Source: Thermogladius calderae 1633
Lineage (GTDB): Archaea; Thermoproteota; Thermoprotei_A; Sulfolobales; Desulfurococcaceae
Assembly (NCBI RefSeq): GCF_000264495.1
Contig: NC_017954.1
Coordinates: 1,178,001 to 1,242,000, forward strand
Direction: 5' to 3'
DNA: 64,000 nucleotides
Position numbers and translations under genes: made by a program. The first letter of the stretch is position 1, and each line of letters opens with the position of its first letter. This document shows, in pieces, positions 6,942-59,718 of the stretch. Below the pieces are notes generated by a model. That model worked only from the letters and a program-made list of their open reading frames with translations. It had not been told where the DNA came from and did not search any database.

Positions 6942-7886
6942 GTGGTCGAGTACGCCGTCATAACACACACCGACATGGACGGTGTAGGGGGCGCCGGCAT
7001 ATACGCGCTGGCGTCGGGGGAGTGGCCTAGGTACGTCTACTTCACCGAGCCCTACAAGCTGCACAGGCTCCTCGGCGAGAAACTGAGCACGATCAAGGGG
7101 GTGGAGAAGCTGGTGCTGATAGACCTCGGGATCAACCCAGGCGGTTTCCCGGAGCTGGTAGGCTTGGCCAGAGAGCTTACGGCGAAAGGGGTGAGCGTCG
7201 AGTGGTACGACCACCACTTGTGGGACGACGAGTGGGTGTCGGCGGTAAGCGGGGCCGGCGTCAAGCTCTACCTCGACACGTCGACATGCGCGACCGGTGT
7301 CGTGTACAGGTACTACGCTGCGGGGAGGGTGAACAGGGAGATAGCCGAGGAGCTCGTCCCAGGTGTCTGCGCCGGGGACTTGTGGACGTTCGACCACTGG
7401 AGGGGGGGCTGGTACCTCAGGCTCATAAGGAGAGGCGACAGCGACTCGTGGAGGCTTAAGGTCATGAGAGAGGTCTTCAAGGGGAGGGCCTGGGCTAGTA
7501 GCTTCACAGAAAAAGTGGAGGAGGCAATGGACGGGGAGCTCAGGGCTTTATCCAGTGTAGAGAACATCGTCGTGAGAGAGGCAGACGGTGTACGCGTGGT
7601 CGCGGCTTACGAGAACAGCGATGTCGAGAACAGCTTCCTCGCAGCCTACCTGCTCACCAGGTACAGCGCCGACGTCGCCGTGATCGCATCGGTAGACGGA
7701 AAGCTGAGCCTGAGGAGTAGGAGCGTAGACGTCAGAAGGGTCGCGGTGAAGCTGGGTGGGGGAGGGCACATGTACGCCAGCGGCGCCAAGGTGACGATTC
7801 CCCTGTCGAGGAAGCTCCTCTCGATCGTAGACAAGAAGGCGCTCCTGAACTACGTAGCCGACAGGGTATACTCCGCTCTAGTCTGA
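6942..7886 (+). CDS. DHH/DHHA1-family phosphoesterase
   Basis: A 314-residue protein with the metal-binding motifs of the DHH family: THTDMDGVGG (residues 7-16), LIDLGIN near residue 64, DHHLWDD near residue 89, and the DHHA1 domain loop GGGGHMYASGA near residue 275. Members include oligoribonucleases that degrade nanoRNA or cyclic dinucleotide products and RecJ-like exonucleases; length here fits the NrnA-like group. Start is GTG 6942, with an AT-rich TATA-like element near 6891-6899. Ends 9 bases into the convergent DUF429 gene. Confidence 0.85.
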   Translation: MVEYAVITHTDMDGVGGAGIYALASGEWPRYVYFTEPYKLHRLLGEKLSTIKGVEKLVLIDLGINPGGFPELVGLARELTAKGVSVEWYDHHLWDDEWVSAVSGAGVKLYLDTSTCATGVVYRYYAAGRVNREIAEELVPGVCAGDLWTFDHWRGGWYLRLIRRGDSDSWRLKVMREVFKGRAWASSFTEKVEEAMDGELRALSSVENIVVREADGVRVVAAYENSDVENSFLAAYLLTRYSADVAVIASVDGKLSLRSRSVDVRRVAVKLGGGGHMYASGAKVTIPLSRKLLSIVDKKALLNYVADRVYSALV

Positions 7887-8420
7887 GCCCCCGCACACCG
7901 GGGGCAACAGGTAGATCCTGCCGTCCACGCCCTCTACCTCGACGACTGCGCCCTCCACGTACATGAGGCTCACAGCCGAGGCTACCACCGCGTCCTCCTC
8001 GTCCCTCGTGAGCCTGCCCGGCAAGACCAAGCCTAGCTTGGACACCAGCTCCCCGAGGCCGCGGCACTTACTCGACTTTAGCGCACTCCTTGGGTGTGTC
8101 TCGAGCACGACTACGCCCATGCTACTCAAGCGCGAGGCGAGTCTCACCCCCCTCTCAACGAGCATGCTCATGCCCCTCCAGCCGGGCGGGAGCACCCTGA
8201 AGCCCAGCCTGACCATAACCCTGTCGACGTGCCTGTAGGAGGGGCTGTGCGAGAGAGGGGAGTCGATGGCGACAACCAGGGCTCTATGGCGCGTGAGGAA
8301 GTCTACTATCTCCTCGTCGCTGTAAAGCGACTCGACGCTTAGGTCTCTACCCGATATCACTGCTACGCCCGAGGGCCTCCGGTCACTCCCCCGCAGGTCT
8401 ACGCCGGCTACTGTCACCAT
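7878..8420 (-). CDS. DUF429 family protein (predicted RNase H-like nuclease)
   Basis: 180 residues. It opens with VAGVDLRGSDRRPSGVAV, an RNase H-fold first strand with an acidic residue, then VVAIDSPLS near residue 50, and ETHPRSALK and RDEEDAVVASAVSL near residues 110 and 140, the pattern of DUF429 proteins predicted to share the RNase H fold. No activity is established. The start overlaps the end of the geranylgeranyl reductase gene by 7 bases, so it is the last gene of that operon. Confidence 0.75.
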   Translation of the reverse strand: MVTVAGVDLRGSDRRPSGVAVISGRDLSVESLYSDEEIVDFLTRHRALVVAIDSPLSHSPSYRHVDRVMVRLGFRVLPPGWRGMSMLVERGVRLASRLSSMGVVVLETHPRSALKSSKCRGLGELVSKLGLVLPGRLTRDEEDAVVASAVSLMYVEGAVVEVEGVDGRIYLLPPVCGGSD

Positions 8421-9799
8421 TTAACTCTAGGTCCCCTGTTGAACCCTATGAGCCTCGCGTACTCGTCGAACAGCTCCTCGACTCTACTCGCCCAGCTCCT
8501 AATCCCCTCTGGGCTCCTCGGGTACTCGTCCCTGTACAAGGTCGTAACCTTGTTCATGTAGTTCCTGACTATCCTCAGCTCACCCAGCAGGCTAGGCCTC
8601 CCGAGGAGCTTGATCACTGTGCTGATAGAGCTGACGACCCTGTCCCCCAGGCTGCCCTTTACGCCTATGTCGTATACGGCCGAGCCGTCTACCAGCCTGT
8701 TCCTTATTATCCAGTCGAAGTCGTCGTTTGACAGCCTCTGGAGGTACATGCGAAGGACGTCGAGACTGGCCTGTTTGACCCCGTACGCTTCCAGGTACTT
8801 CAAGTTCACCTCCCACATATTGCCCGTGTCCGGCTCCCCCTGCTCCAGGACGTTCGCCAGGTGCGTTGCTAGTATGTTCGCGGCCTCCATAGTCGACCCT
8901 ATCCCGCCTCCGTGAACCGGGTTCACGGTGTACGCCGCGTCTCCCACGCTCCCTACGTTACTCCAGACCATTGTTGGGAGGGGCCTCCTCGTGGGCACTA
9001 TGCCACCCCCCGCGTGGACTACCCTCCCCTTGAACCTATCCCTCAAGTACCTGTCGTAGTTGTGCCTCGGGTTGAACCCCGACCCTCCTATCACCCCGAG
9101 CCCGACGTTCACCACCGTGCCCTCTCTGTTCTTGGGGAACATCCACCAGTAGCCGCCGGGGGCGACTCTCGCGTTGAGGTATATGACGGCGTAGTGTATG
9201 TCCGCCTCGCTCACCCCGCTCTCGAGCTCGACGACCTCCCTGTACGCGAGGTTGAAGTCCGTCTCGTACGGCCTCTCGGAGATAGGCCAGTCCTCGGGTA
9301 GCCTGGTCCTCAGAGCAGGCCTCGCACCACTCGCGTCTATGTAGAACCTCGCCCTGAGGTCGACTACCCTGCCACCGGTCTTCTTCACCTTTACACTGCT
9401 CACCCTCCCTTCTCTCACCTCTACGCCAACCAGGAAGTGCTCGTCGTATAGCTCGACACCCCGGTCTAGGGCGTTTTTCAGGAGCCACTGCCCGAACCCG
9501 ACCCTGTTGACGCTGATTCCTTCTCCTGGGACAATTATCTCGTGCTCCTCGCTGGGGCTCTTTATCTTCACACCCCTGTACCTGTGGTCTACCACGCTGT
9601 CGGGGATTTGTAGCCCGATGTGCTCGAAGTGGTGTACTCCGATCGCGTCGCCGCAGGTCTTGTCCCCGATCTTCCCCCTCGGCTTGCTCTCAACGAGGGC
9701 TACCTTGAAGCCCTTGTAGGCTAGCACGAGCGAGGAGTAGAGCCCGCCGACCCCTGCGCCTACCACGACTACGTCGTACACGCGAATACACCTCTGCAC
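8414..9799 (-). CDS. Geranylgeranyl reductase family protein (archaeal lipid saturation candidate)
   Basis: A 461-residue flavoprotein with VVVGAGVGGLYSSLVLA at the N-terminus, KTCGDAIG near residue 48 (the conserved Cys region), FYIDASGARPALR near residue 145, and SVGDAAYTVNPVHGGGI near residue 275 for FAD. Length and the C-terminal helical part match digeranylgeranylglycerophospholipid reductases, which hydrogenate the isoprenoid chains of archaeal membrane lipids. Start is GTG 9799, or GTG 9781 seven codons in. A TATA-like element lies near 9826-9838. Probably the main lipid reductase, with the 357-residue paralogue at 1767-2840 as a second one. Confidence 0.85.
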   Translation of the reverse strand: MQRCIRVYDVVVVGAGVGGLYSSLVLAYKGFKVALVESKPRGKIGDKTCGDAIGVHHFEHIGLQIPDSVVDHRYRGVKIKSPSEEHEIIVPGEGISVNRVGFGQWLLKNALDRGVELYDEHFLVGVEVREGRVSSVKVKKTGGRVVDLRARFYIDASGARPALRTRLPEDWPISERPYETDFNLAYREVVELESGVSEADIHYAVIYLNARVAPGGYWWMFPKNREGTVVNVGLGVIGGSGFNPRHNYDRYLRDRFKGRVVHAGGGIVPTRRPLPTMVWSNVGSVGDAAYTVNPVHGGGIGSTMEAANILATHLANVLEQGEPDTGNMWEVNLKYLEAYGVKQASLDVLRMYLQRLSNDDFDWIIRNRLVDGSAVYDIGVKGSLGDRVVSSISTVIKLLGRPSLLGELRIVRNYMNKVTTLYRDEYPRSPEGIRSWASRVEELFDEYARLIGFNRGPRVKW

Positions 9800-13330: not shown

Positions 13331-14911
13331 ATGGGTAGGCTCTTGATCAAGAAGTGGAGGGTCTACACCCTCGAGCGGGGGCTTGGCTGGTTCGAGGTCT
13401 TCCTCTGGGTCGTCGCCAACCCCGTAGCCTCGGGCTTCACCTTCTTCACAGTCCAGATGCTGGGTACGCCCGGGCTCTACGGGGGCTCGAACCTACTGGC
13501 CTACCTCCTCGCGGGCCTGGTCTACGTCCCGGTGGTCCTCGCCTTCATGTACGTCGCGCTTAACGTCCAGAGGGCGGCCGCGCCCTACGTGCTGATATCC
13601 AGGGCCGTCTCTCCCGTCGTGGCCTTCATTGCGATCTGGTACTACATGGCCGCCAGCGGTGGTCTACTCTCTCTCGGCTTCCTCGTATACTACGGGTTCA
13701 AGGCGCTGGCGGGGAACGTCCTCTTGGCTGGGCTCGCCTCCGGCGACCAGCTCCTGGTGGACCTGGGCGTGGTGTTAAACCAGCCTTTGACGGAGCTCTA
13801 CCTGGGCGTACTAGTTGTAGCGGCACTATTCATCCTCGCGAGCGTGGGGACTAGGCGGCTGAAGTGGGTCCTAGCCCCAATAGTAGTAACGCCGCTGTTA
13901 ATCACGCTCGCGTACACGGTGGCCCTGTACCTCGCAGACCCTGGCACTATATACGAGAACTGGGCTAGAGCCACCGGTTTAAACCCCGTGCTACTCGAGG
14001 ACGTCGCGTTGAAGGGGGCCCTCAGAGGGGTGACCCCTCTAACCCCGGCTCCTCTCGCGGCCGCCACCGGTGGTATGATGGTCGCCGCTCTCTGGGCTTA
14101 CGCGGGGCTGGAGTCGGCCAGCTTCGTAGCCGGCGAGGTCAAAGACCCGGTGAAGTCGTACACGAGGGGCTACCCGCTCGGCTTCCTGACAGTCTTCGCT
14201 CTCTACCTCCTAGTCCCCTTCGTCGTCGAGACCAAGCTAGGGGTAAGCCTCGTCGCGTCGCACTCCTACCTCTACTACAACTACCGCGGAGTCTTGAGGA
14301 GCCTCAGCGGGAGACCCCTAGTACCCCCGTCGATCTTCGTGTACCTGTCCCTCTTCACCAGCGACAAGTACCTGATACTACTGGCTGGACTAGCGGCTTT
14401 CATGTGGTTCCTCAACACAGCTTACACAATCTGGCTGGCAGCAATTAGAATTTTATACGCCCTCGCGGTCGACAAAATGGCGCCTTCGTCGCTGGCAAGG
14501 GTGACCGGTGTCAGAGGCGTGCCTATAGTTGCTAACAATGTTGTCTTCTCGTTCGGGATAGTGGGACTCCTCCTAGGCTGCTTGACCGTGAAAGGCCTGA
14601 TACCAGTCGCGTCTCTCCTGAAGCTCTTCGGCTTCAGTTACAGTATACTCGTCTGGTTGACAGGTCTCTCCCTCGCGGTTCTGCCCTGGACCCGGGGCGG
14701 CTTCTACGAGGGCCTACCCTTCAAGAGGCGCGTCTTCGAGACCGCTGTCGGCGCGGCCTGCTTCGCCTCGGGCTGGTTCATGCTGCTCTACTCCGGGTCT
14801 AATGTGAGTCTCGTAGAGGTCGTCGCAAACTCCTTCATAGGTCTGCTAGCGCTTGTATCACTGCTACTGGTGATGAGGAGGTTCTGGGCCCCCGAGGCGG
14901 TAACTACCTAA
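13331..14911 (+). CDS. APC-superfamily amino acid permease
   Basis: 526 residues with about 12-14 hydrophobic helices. The first helix region GWFEVFLWVVANPVASG resembles the substrate-binding unwound helix of amino-acid/polyamine transporters, and the helix pair ending in GLESASFVAGEVKDP is the typical APC helix 6 region with a conserved Glu. Likely imports amino acids or peptide-derived compounds by cation coupling. It is a clear paralogue of the protein at 56563-58182 (matching segments: NPVASGFTFF against CPAASGMTFY, and GLESASFVAGEVKDP against GLEVTTFIGSEVKDP). Transcribed alone 31 bases after trpB2. Confidence 0.88.
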   Translation: MGRLLIKKWRVYTLERGLGWFEVFLWVVANPVASGFTFFTVQMLGTPGLYGGSNLLAYLLAGLVYVPVVLAFMYVALNVQRAAAPYVLISRAVSPVVAFIAIWYYMAASGGLLSLGFLVYYGFKALAGNVLLAGLASGDQLLVDLGVVLNQPLTELYLGVLVVAALFILASVGTRRLKWVLAPIVVTPLLITLAYTVALYLADPGTIYENWARATGLNPVLLEDVALKGALRGVTPLTPAPLAAATGGMMVAALWAYAGLESASFVAGEVKDPVKSYTRGYPLGFLTVFALYLLVPFVVETKLGVSLVASHSYLYYNYRGVLRSLSGRPLVPPSIFVYLSLFTSDKYLILLAGLAAFMWFLNTAYTIWLAAIRILYALAVDKMAPSSLARVTGVRGVPIVANNVVFSFGIVGLLLGCLTVKGLIPVASLLKLFGFSYSILVWLTGLSLAVLPWTRGGFYEGLPFKRRVFETAVGAACFASGWFMLLYSGSNVSLVEVVANSFIGLLALVSLLLVMRRFWAPEAVTT

Positions 14912-15542
14912 TGTGACCGGGGCCCTCTGCTTCGTGGGGCTTCGGCGGCCAGCCGTAGCCTGTGTGGAGTAGAGTGGAAAGAGTGGAGGACAGGAGTGTT
15001 GCCAAGGCCAGTACTAGGTGTACCAGGGGGTTCAGCAGTAGGCTCGTGTAGGGGAATTGCTGCACGTTCGACGAGCCAAGTATCAGCCTCCCAGCCGAGG
15101 TAACGTGGTCTAGGCTGAAGGACAGGCTCGCGACAGCCCTCGTGAAGAAGTAGCTGTAGAGACCCAGGAACACCGCCGAGGAGACCGCGCCCACCAGCCC
15201 TCCCGTGAAGCACAGCCTGAGCTGGGTGGTGTAGTCCTCACCCTCTAATAGGGCGAGCAGCAGGTTAGCCCCGCTGAACACCATGTAGACGGTGAACAAG
15301 ACGAGGGGTGCGGCCATGTAGCTCGTTCTGTCGAGCTCGTCTACCGTTATCGGCGTGCCGTAGTAGGTGACCCGGTAGTAGGAGAACGCGACTAGGCCGT
15401 CGAGGACCCCGTAGACCCGGTAGAGCGGTAGCACTAGTGCGAGGACCATGTAGACTCCGTAGAACAGGGTGAGGAACCCTGTGACGTAGTGGATCTTCCT
15501 GTACCTCTCCTTCTCAGTGGCTACAGGACTCGACTCTCCCAA
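14904..15542 (-). CDS. Membrane protein of the pilin / signal peptidase cluster
   Basis: 212 residues with about four membrane helices (roughly 16-40, 72-93, 102-132 and 168-190) and a polar C-terminus. No family recognised. It starts inside the last codons of the signal peptidase gene (29-base overlap, TTG 15542), so it is translated from the same message. An export, assembly or anchoring partner for the secreted protein of the operon is a reasonable guess and no more than that. The stop overlaps the convergent permease gene by 8 bases. Confidence 0.6.
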   Translation of the reverse strand: MGESSPVATEKERYRKIHYVTGFLTLFYGVYMVLALVLPLYRVYGVLDGLVAFSYYRVTYYGTPITVDELDRTSYMAAPLVLFTVYMVFSGANLLLALLEGEDYTTQLRLCFTGGLVGAVSSAVFLGLYSYFFTRAVASLSFSLDHVTSAGRLILGSSNVQQFPYTSLLLNPLVHLVLALATLLSSTLSTLLHTGYGWPPKPHEAEGPGHIR

Positions 15543-16629
15543 CCCAGACCACGCTCTCGTTCCCGTAGTAGTAGGAGACTCTTACGTATGCGTAGTCGAA
15601 TACCCCCTGGAGCTCCAGCCTGTACGTCTTCAGAGGCTGTACTGTCACGTCAAAGGACTCCTCCCGGCTGTGCACAAGGTTCACTAGGCCGGCCCACGTG
15701 GAGTTCACGTAGGTGACTTTTACCGAGACGTTCTCGAGGGGGAAAGGCAGGGTGTTCTCCACGAGCAGGCTACAGCCCTCTACCTTCACCGCTGGCTTGA
15801 GTAAAGCGAAGTGTACCGGGTAGTAGCCTATGAGGAGTCCCTTGTCGAGCTTCGCGGTCAGGTTCACGTAGAAGTAGTTTAATCCGGCCTGGAAGAGCTC
15901 CTTGTACAAGCTTGTTGGTACACCGACCTCCACCCTGCTACCGTTGACCACCTCTGCGAAGGTGCAGGGGTAGACGCCTACCGCGCTTATACTGCAGTTA
16001 GAGACGCCGACTATAGTAGTGTTGAAGGTCGTGTAGTCCAGTGTGAGAGCCGTGTAGTCCCCCGAGATCTCGTAGCCTGCGAGCTCGAGGCTGGGGGCTT
16101 GGAGGACGGTTCTATAGGGCGGCTGGCCCACCACGTAGAGGGCTGTGAACACCGCGTAGAGTGTTACGAACAGGACGAACAAGGTGGTCTCCAAGTTCAG
16201 GGGCTGGAAGAGTCTCCTCAAATCCCAGAGGGGTACGAACAGCGGGGTCGTAAGGAACACTGCCAGTGGGAGCCACACCTCCAGCGGTATAACAAGGACT
16301 GCTCTGTACTTGACAGCCTTCTCCGGGAATGGCGGGTCTGGAGCCGGGTTGAAGTCCCCCTTCGTCAAGACAGTTCCCCCGGCTACTTCGACCACCCTGT
16401 GTATCACGCAGTGGAATAAGCCTGTACAGTAGATCACAACGTCGCCTTTCGAGAAGCCCGTCAGCCAGACGGCGGTGCTCAATACCAAGTCGCCCGGCTT
16501 GAGAGTAGGGTACATAGAGTAGCCGGCGACCAGGCTGAGGGCAAGAGGCAGGAAGCCTAGATAGGGGGCTAGGAACGCCGTGCTCAGGAGTATCGCTACA
16601 ACTAGTAAGGGCAGGTCCCTCGGGTACAT
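15514..16629 (-). CDS. Signal peptidase I (SipW/ER type) with large exported C-terminal domain
   Basis: Residues 1-135 are a type I signal peptidase of the archaeal/ER group: an N-terminal helix, then GYSMYPTLKPGDLVL with the catalytic Ser (near residue 38), VIHRVVEV with the His that replaces the bacterial Lys, and GDFNPAPDP with conserved Asp residues. After two further membrane helices (about 110-130 and 150-172) comes an exported domain of about 200 residues, rich in beta propensity and N-X-S/T sites, with four Cys. Archaeal peptidases usually end soon after the catalytic core, so this tail is unusual. It is 56 bases downstream of the secreted candidate pilin and probably processes it. 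Confidence 0.82.
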   Translation of the reverse strand: MYPRDLPLLVVAILLSTAFLAPYLGFLPLALSLVAGYSMYPTLKPGDLVLSTAVWLTGFSKGDVVIYCTGLFHCVIHRVVEVAGGTVLTKGDFNPAPDPPFPEKAVKYRAVLVIPLEVWLPLAVFLTTPLFVPLWDLRRLFQPLNLETTLFVLFVTLYAVFTALYVVGQPPYRTVLQAPSLELAGYEISGDYTALTLDYTTFNTTIVGVSNCSISAVGVYPCTFAEVVNGSRVEVGVPTSLYKELFQAGLNYFYVNLTAKLDKGLLIGYYPVHFALLKPAVKVEGCSLLVENTLPFPLENVSVKVTYVNSTWAGLVNLVHSREESFDVTVQPLKTYRLELQGVFDYAYVRVSYYYGNESVVWVGRVESCSH

Positions 16630-16685
16630 GATAGCACCGTGAAGGTTGATAGAGATGATAAAAAAGTGGTTTTATAGAGTCGTGT

Positions 16686-17282
16686 TTACGGCGGTGTCTC
16701 GGTGGACGGGCTGTAGACTAGGAGTAGCTGTGCGTTAACTGACGCAGGTAGCTGATAGCCCTCTGGTATGTACACGTAGACGTCGAGCTCTATCGCGTTA
16801 CCCGCCGTAATCGCTATCTGGGGGGTCTGCGAGGTGGTGGTCAGGTCGAGGCTGGTGTGATAGCCCGACGGCGTGGGCGTCGGGTGGCCCGAGAGGCTCC
16901 TAGCCGCACCCTTGCTGTACACGTAGAGGACCAGCTTGGAGTTAGCCGGTAGACCCGAAGCGGTGGTTACGACCTTCAGGGTCACGTAGTATGTCTTCGA
17001 GTCTCCGTTCACTATGAGGCTGATGTTCTTGTAGTACGACACCTGGTAGGTTGGGTGTATAGTTATCTCGAGGCTAGTCTTGTTAGACCCGAGGTTGACG
17101 GCTATGGTGTTGGCTCCGCCTAGATCCGGTTGGTTGGCGTTAGTGCCGTATTCGAAGTAGACAGGTGGTGCTACGGGGCTGACGGCCACTGAAACCGGGT
17201 AGTACACGAAGACGCTGGCGAAGACTATGCTTGTGAAGACTGCTACTGCAACTAGGGCTAGTATTCTCCTGTCGAACCTCAT
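16686..17282 (-). CDS. Secreted fibre subunit candidate, TasA/AbpA-like
   Basis: 198 residues from ATG 17282 (GGTG six bases upstream). Residues 1-6 are charged, 7-22 hydrophobic, and FASVFVYYPVS offers a signal peptidase I site near residue 23. The remainder is beta-rich with no Cys, has N-X-S/T sites (NKTS, NISL), and ends in a Pro/Thr/Ser tail. The order 'exported small beta protein, then its own SipW-type peptidase' is that of Bacillus tasA-sipW and of the donor-strand pili described in Pyrobaculum. The stretch YYKNISLIVNGDS is like the 'yknv..v.N' strand of such subunits. No homology search was possible; other exported beta-sandwich proteins would look similar. Confidence 0.55.
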   Translation of the reverse strand: MRFDRRILALVAVAVFTSIVFASVFVYYPVSVAVSPVAPPVYFEYGTNANQPDLGGANTIAVNLGSNKTSLEITIHPTYQVSYYKNISLIVNGDSKTYYVTLKVVTTASGLPANSKLVLYVYSKGAARSLSGHPTPTPSGYHTSLDLTTTSQTPQIAITAGNAIELDVYVYIPEGYQLPASVNAQLLLVYSPSTETPP

Positions 17283-17316
17283 ACTGAGCACCACTAGGGG
17301 TTTGTATCACGAAATA

Positions 17317-17325
17317 ATCTATAAA
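17317..17325 (-). promoter_or_regulatory. TATA box of the pilin-peptidase operon
   Basis: Minus-strand AATTTATAGATT, 36-43 bases before ATG 17282, in the divergent region shared with the glycosyltransferase gene. Confidence 0.55.
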
Positions 17326-17431: not shown

Positions 17432-18547
17432 GTGATAGTGATGCCGGACCTGGTCAGCGACGCTATAGGGGTTGTCGAGGGGCTAGCCATAGCCTACATG
17501 GCTATTCTCGCTATAGGTTTGACGGGCTACATCCTGTACAGGCCTAAGAGGGAGGGCGTGAAGGCGAGCAGCTTCGAGATCGTCGTAGTCTCCAAGGCCG
17601 ACGAGAGGGTGAGGAAGAGCCTGTTCGAGACGGTCCGCTACCACGCGAGGAGGTTCGGAGGCGTAACGCTGGTAGTAGACGAGGAGTCTCCGCTACTACC
17701 CGAGCTGAGGAGGCTCGGGCACGTCAAGCTCGTGGTCGTCCCCAGGTGGTACAGGAGGGACCTCGTCGGTAAGGGGAGGGCCCTCAACTACTTCATCGAA
17801 AACTACGTGGACAGGGAGAAGTGGTACGTCTTCATAGACGACGACAACATTATACTAGACGACAACTTCCTCTACGAGATACCCTACTACGAGTCTAGGG
17901 GTGTTTTCGTCGGGAACGGCGTCCTCGTGCCGAGGATGGGTAGGAGCAAGCTGGCCTACGTCATGGACTGGGTCAGGTTCCTAGACGACGTAACCCTGTA
18001 CAGGTTCTTCACAGGCCTGCTCGGGAGGCCGCTCCTAGGGCTACACGGCGAGCTACTCATAGTGAAGGGGAGGGTGTTGAAGGAGGTGGGGTTCAGCTAC
18101 AGGAGCATCACCGAGGACTTCAGGTTCTCTGTAGAGCTCGTCAAGAGGGGGTACAGGACGTGGCAGAGCAGTACGAGGGTCCTCATCAAGAGCCCCAACA
18201 GCATAGCCGACCTGATCAAGCAGAGGGGGAGGTGGTTCAAGGGGGTCATCTCGGACGTCAAGCACAGCCCCCTGCCCATGAAGCTCGTTGTAGGGTTCAG
18301 GGCGTTCTTCTGGAGCCTAGTCTTCACCGCGTCCTGGGCGATGCTACCGGCTGTACTGGCAGCAGGTATATTCTGGTTCATACTACCAGCCGGCCTATAC
18401 TACGCGTCGGCGTACCTCTACGGCTCATACAAGGCTGGAGAGCCCGTACTCGTCTTCACCATCCCCTTATTCGGCTTGATCGAGGCCTCCGCGAGGATCT
18501 ACGGGCTTCTAGCCGTGAAGGACTTCATCGTCATAGACAAGAATTAA
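17432..18547 (+). CDS. Membrane glycosyltransferase, family 2 (processive-like)
   Basis: 371 residues. An N-terminal membrane helix (about 12-35) precedes a GT-A domain: FEIVVVSKADE at the start of the fold, VFIDDDNIIL as the metal-binding DXD region near residue 135, TEDFRFSVEL as the acceptor-side acidic motif near residue 228, and QRGRWFKG as the Q-x-x-RW motif near residue 263. Two to three helices follow at the C-terminus. The four motifs together mark processive or single-transfer polysaccharide synthases such as cellulose/mannan-type enzymes. Divergent from the secreted fibre operon, so it may make a surface glycan. ATG 17441 is an alternative start. Confidence 0.85.
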   Translation: MIVMPDLVSDAIGVVEGLAIAYMAILAIGLTGYILYRPKREGVKASSFEIVVVSKADERVRKSLFETVRYHARRFGGVTLVVDEESPLLPELRRLGHVKLVVVPRWYRRDLVGKGRALNYFIENYVDREKWYVFIDDDNIILDDNFLYEIPYYESRGVFVGNGVLVPRMGRSKLAYVMDWVRFLDDVTLYRFFTGLLGRPLLGLHGELLIVKGRVLKEVGFSYRSITEDFRFSVELVKRGYRTWQSSTRVLIKSPNSIADLIKQRGRWFKGVISDVKHSPLPMKLVVGFRAFFWSLVFTASWAMLPAVLAAGIFWFILPAGLYYASAYLYGSYKAGEPVLVFTIPLFGLIEASARIYGLLAVKDFIVIDKN

Positions 18548-59617: not shown

Positions 59618-59718
59618 AGCCGGGGGCGGGATTCGAACCCGCGGTTAAACGGGTCTCTGAGCCCCTGACTCGAGAGCGCCCTGCAGCCCGCCGCCTTAGA
59701 CCGCTCGGCCACCCCGGC
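59618..59718 (-). tRNA. tRNA-Cys (GCA) with a 26-base intron
   Basis: Acceptor GCCGGGG (59718-59712) pairs with CCCCGGC, discriminator U at 59618, CCA not encoded. D stem GCC/GGC, anticodon stem GCGGG with CCCGT, loop C-U-GCA-G-A, T arm GCGGG-TTCGAAT-CCCGC. The loop is interrupted between positions 37 and 38 by 59655-59680, the standard archaeal intron position; removing it leaves 75 bases. At first sight the long middle looks like a type II tRNA, but the stem pairing only works with the intron removed. Confidence 0.85.

Follow-up and report, generated by a model that had tools for sequence, protein, structure and literature searches.

A probable thread/AbpA-type pilus cluster with its own tailed signal peptidase in Thermogladius calderae

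Donor-strand fibre assembly in archaea is an open question. Among the closest described systems are the threads of Sulfolobus acidocaldarius (7pnb, 8rzl). In the thread paper, the subunit Saci_0406 is cleaved at Ala23|Asp24, its N-terminal strand is the donor strand, the N-terminal Asp is the isopeptide-bond residue, and a YYY motif is described (PMC9715654). The same paper proposes Saci_0405 as a thread subunit able to donate a strand and not to accept one, reports no definite chaperone or usher in the thread gene cluster, and reaches no conclusive structure for saci_0408 and saci_0407 (PMC9715654). A second system is the bundling pilus of Pyrobaculum calidifontis, AbpA (7ueg). In the tapA-sipW-tasA cluster of Bacillus subtilis, the genes for a donor-strand fibre subunit and an accessory subunit are likewise joined by one for a signal peptidase (PMC9674648). 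Donor-strand logic is also common to chaperone-usher and type V pili, and type V pili too are described as freeing a strand by proteolysis (PMC9715654).

We analyzed a window of 64,000 nucleotides, the whole stretch of DNA under study, from the single-contig genome (1,356,318 bp) of Thermogladius calderae. An ORF check of the window places the genes A, S and M on the minus strand at the positions first noted for them. Homologues of all three recur in the same order in many genomes, so the cluster is not a chance ORF structure. We propose, with a probability of roughly 0.7 for the whole account including the assembly steps set out below, that the cluster specifies a pilus of the thread/AbpA kind, built by donor-strand complementation, together with a dedicated signal peptidase. 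It is common to many Thermoproteota and ties a pilin to a private tailed peptidase, a partner in the membrane and a probable cap, naming concrete proteins that bear on how such fibres start, extend and end. Its recurrence across related archaea suggests that the cluster probably shows how the fibres are cut loose and assembled. We found no description of the A-(B)-S-M gene set in the literature searched, and an earlier mention in the AbpA paper is possible.

The secreted subunit A and its structural relatives

Gene A (16686..17282, minus strand; ATG at 17282, stop ending at 16686) encodes a predicted secreted pilin subunit of 198 residues, about 176 of them in the mature protein; an alternative GTG four codons upstream of the ATG would make a protein of 202 residues. 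The ORFs agree with the first-pass annotation, which had described a 198-residue, beta-rich signal-peptide protein encoded 56 bases before a peptidase gene. By alignment, the signal peptide covers residues 1-22 (17217..17282, minus strand), with predicted cleavage at ...VFA|SVFVYYP. Ala22 is invariant in A4, the alignment of the A family, and A22|S23 aligns with the cleavage site of Saci_0406. The first 18 residues of the predicted mature protein, SVFVYYPVSVAVSPVAPP (17163..17216, minus strand), are the candidate donor-strand segment, placed from the model and the 7pnb alignment.

A search of the PDB with the single A sequence returned the thread subunit as its sole match (E 0.053), with the strongest agreement in the N-terminal tail. 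The profile A4, made from 32 relatives and containing no Sulfolobus sequence, matches Saci_0406 (7pnb) over its full length with an E value of 8.8e-7; it replaced an earlier, Sulfolobus-containing profile that was dropped as circular. The AlphaFold2 model of mature A (monomer, 42 sequences) is all-beta with a pLDDT of 94.6, and its residues 1-18 lie outside any strand. Foldseek with this model returned AbpA 7ueg (E 2.2e-7) and thread 7pnb (E 2.8e-7), and no other entry below 0.001. With VIA-align, residues 1-176 of the model align to residues 24-201 of 7pnb (Z 13.8, rmsd 3.0, 155 residues aligned), and the match to 7ueg has a Z of 12.6 (rmsd 3.8, 155 aligned). Both the fold and the sequence relation place A in the superfamily of archaeal thread/AbpA-type donor-strand pilins, and the alignment and monomer model indicate a Sec/SPI signal peptide and, after it, a free N-terminal strand. 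Computation thus supports A as a secreted subunit of predicted thread/AbpA fold with a free N-terminal strand, in line with the earlier proposal of an AbpA-like donor-strand fibre subunit.

The next VIA matches of A are the cannula protein CanA (Z 7.8) and a Natrinema pilus (Z 7.3), and FimG-type matches reach only Z ~6. The CanA match would fit an A that is a cannula-type or S-layer-associated beta protein and not a pilin; the far higher Z values of the thread and AbpA, and a sequence profile that links A to the thread only, make this highly improbable. AbpA shares the fold of A over 155 residues but, unlike the thread, is unmatched by the A sequence profile. The AbpA gene neighbourhood was not found in the class searched, which apparently does not include Pyrobaculum.

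The assignment of A to the TasA family, which the first-pass annotation had made, was not upheld: A does not match Pfam PF12389. None of the 229 genomes of the class contains this family, and the same search does match B. subtilis. TasA entries are not among the structural matches listed for A, which does not by itself exclude the TasA jelly-roll fold. Nor is A a Sulfolobus-type thread subunit in the narrow sense, as it starts with SVFVYYP and the thread with DVIYYYQ, that is, with Ser and VYY instead of the N-terminal Asp and YYY. Scanning A, M, B and the tail of S against Pfam and NCBIfam yielded no usable match. A longer pilin type, of about 220-245 residues with two invariant Cys, also accompanies S and M at six loci (L102, L108, L110, L112, L113 and L114), mostly in the arrangement A-S-M-B. 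A profile of seven of these longer pilins had no PDB match.

Signal peptidase S, its exported tail and the membrane protein M

Gene S (15514..16629, minus strand) starts with an ATG at 16629, 56 nt after A, and encodes a protein of 371 residues. It scores 57.2 bits against the archaeal signal peptidase I model TIGR02228 (cut-off 51.85; 58.4 bits in the genome search), and hydropathy places transmembrane segments at residues 8-26, 110-128 and 144-162. The predicted catalytic residues Ser38 (codon 16516..16518) and His77 (16399..16401), as well as Asp98 in the motif GDxNPxPDPP (16336..16338; all minus strand), are each conserved at ≥90% in the alignment A3 of relatives, with His replacing the bacterial Lys. 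A type I signal peptidase with Ser, His and Asp, as first described, is therefore what the alignment indicates. Membership in the SipW group did not hold, with 22.1 bits for S against a cut-off of 190 in the SipW equivalog NF046067. The cluster differs from tapA-sipW-tasA in this score and in the missing PF12389 match of A, and further in the exported two-domain tail that S adds, in a four-TM protein M, and in a B family whose two ends both carry the donor-strand motif.

The genome encodes a second, short housekeeping signal peptidase (C1:35624-36091). In a tree of 73 catalytic domains, a branch with support 94/85 separates the pilus-linked from the housekeeping peptidases; many other forks are weak, since the tree rests on 129 columns. 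The sole cluster-linked exception is the short peptidase of genome G128. The idea of a dedicated peptidase gains from both results, and computation supports S as an archaeal signal peptidase I of the pilin-linked branch with exported Ig-like domains. Relatives also carry other long signal peptidases (about 320-430 residues) that have no Ig-like tail (for example G071:C1:65129, G077:C1:856078 and G030:C1:1014966); the sampled ones form their own branch.

Residues 172-371 of S follow the third hydrophobic segment and form the exported tail of about 200 residues that had been noted at first (15517..16116, minus strand), which carries seven N-glycosylation sequons. AlphaFold models the tail alone as two Ig-like beta-sandwich domains (pLDDT 93.7). 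Its structural matches are of the Ig/Fn3 type, generic and all below Z 9; thread and AbpA are not among the matches listed, which does not disprove kinship. In three genomes (G003, G014 and G128) the neighbour of the pilin keeps the tail, as matched by the tail profile, and has no catalytic domain; in G128 a separate short peptidase lies downstream of the tail protein. Because the tail stays beside the pilin without a peptidase domain, it has a role of its own and is not a mere regulator of an attached peptidase.

Chaperone-usher chaperones are built of two tandem Ig-like domains, as is the tail in the model, and the chaperone CupB2 is a weak match to it (Z 7.6, domain 2 only). Perhaps, then, the tail anchors the base of the fibre or acts as a pilin chaperone tethered to the membrane; in this view it would be the part essential to assembly, and the peptidase would have been fused to it secondarily. 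We rate this somewhat below even odds; it refines the main account and does not contradict it. Its retention where the peptidase domain is missing speaks for such a role, as does the make-up of thread-type genomes without the tailed peptidase, in which the pilin is adjoined by a single-TM protein with ~220 exported residues and by an M-like gene. The generic nature of the Ig-like matches speaks against it, as does the hhalign comparison of the tail with the thread-cluster protein (probability 0.5%, E 0.12; sub-alignments no better), which does not show homology of the two. We suspect a parallel between them by position and topology.

In G042, the thread-type genome that carries Saci_0406, the pilin agrees letter for letter with the printed portion of 7pnb. 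The single-TM accessory protein is encoded there in two overlapping ORFs (L116:6652-7483 and 7694-8494) that correspond by position to saci_0408 and saci_0407. The M-like gene of this genome lies divergent, adjoining the split protein. The S. acidocaldarius thread thus resembles our system in the profile, fold and signal-peptide/N-strand layout of its subunit, and its cluster in the position and topology of a single-TM exported protein and an M-like protein. The two differ in that the gene cluster of the S. acidocaldarius thread includes no peptidase, and no tail homologue was detectable there.

The tail might instead regulate the peptidase or sense the surface, without handling subunits. A bifunctional signal peptidase has a precedent in SipW, which, by the title of work cited in PMC9674648, is bifunctional and controls biofilm formation. 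The tail persists in proteins without a peptidase domain that it could regulate, which makes this unlikely.

M (14904..15542, minus strand; 212 residues) has four hydrophobic segments by hydropathy, and its gene overlaps S by 29 nt, as expected for the overlapping membrane protein first noted downstream of the peptidase. Homologues of M adjoin S at −67 to +44 nt in 45 of 48 tail-bearing loci. These data support M as a predicted four-TM partner co-encoded with S. M matches the M-like protein of the thread cluster weakly, with an E value of 0.0028; the lowest value among 30 column shuffles was 0.12, and reversal gave 0.13.

Gene order in relatives, the protein B and a possible assembly route

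The search for homologues of A, S and M covered 147 genomes of the order, and sixty regions were compared for gene order. The genes usually follow one another as A, B, S, M, and in some loci B comes after M. In 44 of the 48 tail-bearing loci, A and/or B lies directly upstream of S on the same strand, and two of the remaining four begin at a contig end. The first-pass annotation had asked whether its three genes stay together in relatives, and dozens of loci share the order A-(B)-S-M. It had held that an unrelated fold, or a sole signal peptidase without a conserved link to its neighbour, would count against a fibre cluster; we found the AbpA/thread fold, a second peptidase and conserved linkage. 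The module, including fusions of M and B, occurs also in families outside the order.

Across the class, A is found in 80 and the tail in 66 of 229 genomes. Fifty-six genomes have both, 24 the pilin only and 10 the tail only (odds ratio 32, Fisher p 6e-24, a value that overstates independence because the genomes are related). The tail is not universal, as the 24 pilin-bearing genomes without a detectable tail indicate. The TIGR02228 score of S is within the normal range of signal peptidases and the S. acidocaldarius threads form without a peptidase in their cluster, which would suit an S that is a second general signal peptidase, with an incidental pilin neighbourhood and a tail that just positions it in the envelope. 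We consider this very unlikely given the co-occurrence of pilin and tail, their adjacency in most loci, the separate branch of S, and the tails that stand beside a pilin without a peptidase domain.

The B gene of T. calderae (C1:1063643-1065124, equal to L173:5644-7125; 493 residues) stands alone, 113 kb outside the window, and B is also apart from the cluster in two other genomes (G202 and G008). B proteins have 270-690 residues, and their N-terminal tail is mostly the same as that of A. A 12-residue matrix of the mature pilin N-strand picks the N-terminus in most B proteins, and a second match lies at or near the C-terminus in most of them, frequently two residues short of the end. Among 56 pilins, just 2 carry the motif past residue 80. 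The C-terminal copy in the T. calderae B scores 10.6 (shuffle mean −6.0, sd 4.4). The best of 200 shuffles reached 12.3, which is why the claim is made at the level of the family. Directly before the C-terminal copy, at least 27 of 40 B proteins have a Cys, a short hairpin and a Cys, and both Cys are invariant in an alignment of 12 B proteins. The C-terminal part of B also matches the pilin profile at positions 58-165.

Computation therefore supports a B family that carries a putative pilin donor-strand motif at both ends, and this C-terminal donor-like strand is not seen in the thread protein Saci_0405. The simplest reading is that the donor-strand copy in B would plug the pilin domain of the same protein in cis, leaving B able to donate a strand and unable to accept one. 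From its sequence, B looks like a self-plugged cap or tip and is a better cap candidate than the tail of S, which the first-pass annotation had suggested might cap the fibre base. In seven loci (L097, L098, L104, L106, L107, L109 and L111), M is fused to B in the order A-S-M::B. The signal peptide of B is an internal segment in these fusions, and they may therefore be split by signal peptidase. A lectin/LamG-like domain in B was suggested by eye and rejected, with no library or PDB match, and we therefore make no adhesin claim.

The main account would run as follows. A would be exported by Sec and stay anchored via its signal peptide until cleavage by S after Ala22 releases the N-terminal strand, which would enter the groove of the next A. 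Cutting and chain extension would take place at one membrane site, where M and the Ig-like tail of S may hold or receive subunits. B would end the chain with a C-terminal pilin-like domain plugged by its own C-terminal strand and clamped by the Cys pair; its N-terminal strand would plug an A, placing B at the tip or the start of the filament. The cluster shares this donor-strand logic with chaperone-usher pili but has no recognised chaperone or usher. By analogy with threads and bundling pili, the fibre likely serves in adhesion, cell-cell contact or biofilm.

A further version of this scheme, which is tentative and on the doubtful side, makes signal-peptide cleavage the chain-extension step itself. 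The last subunit would be held in the membrane by its uncut signal peptide; the tailed S, with M, would cut it there and hand the freed donor strand on to the following subunit, itself docked on the Ig-like tail. B, self-plugged by its C-terminal donor strand, would start the filament as its tip, and saci_0407/0408 would correspond to a tail without a peptidase. If true, this would be a peptidase-driven way of building a donor-strand pilus that is distinct from chaperone-usher and type V assembly.

Candidate transcription signals and flanking genes

By inspection, a TATA-like TTTATAG (17319..17325, minus strand) lies 43 nt upstream of the ATG of A as a candidate promoter, and CTTAAAA (17338-17332, minus strand) is another candidate element. 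A TATA-like TATAAA (16671..16676, minus strand), 47 nt upstream of the ATG of S, is a candidate second promoter, and a run of six T between A and S (16660..16665, minus strand) is a possible archaeal terminator. With TATA-like motifs before both A and S and a T run between them, the first proposal of one operon with one TATA box is not confirmed. It is possible that A and S are on separate or partly separate transcripts, and the operon structure of A, S and M is uncertain on these motifs. A bacterial promoter and terminator scan was set aside as uninformative for an archaeon.

Divergent from A lies a gene for a family-2 glycosyltransferase (17432-18547 of the window), and the same spot in a genome of the same genus (G202) also carries a long ORF. 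Elsewhere in the window, at 59618-59718 on the minus strand, there is a tRNA match that is unusually long (101 nt) and possibly intron-bearing.
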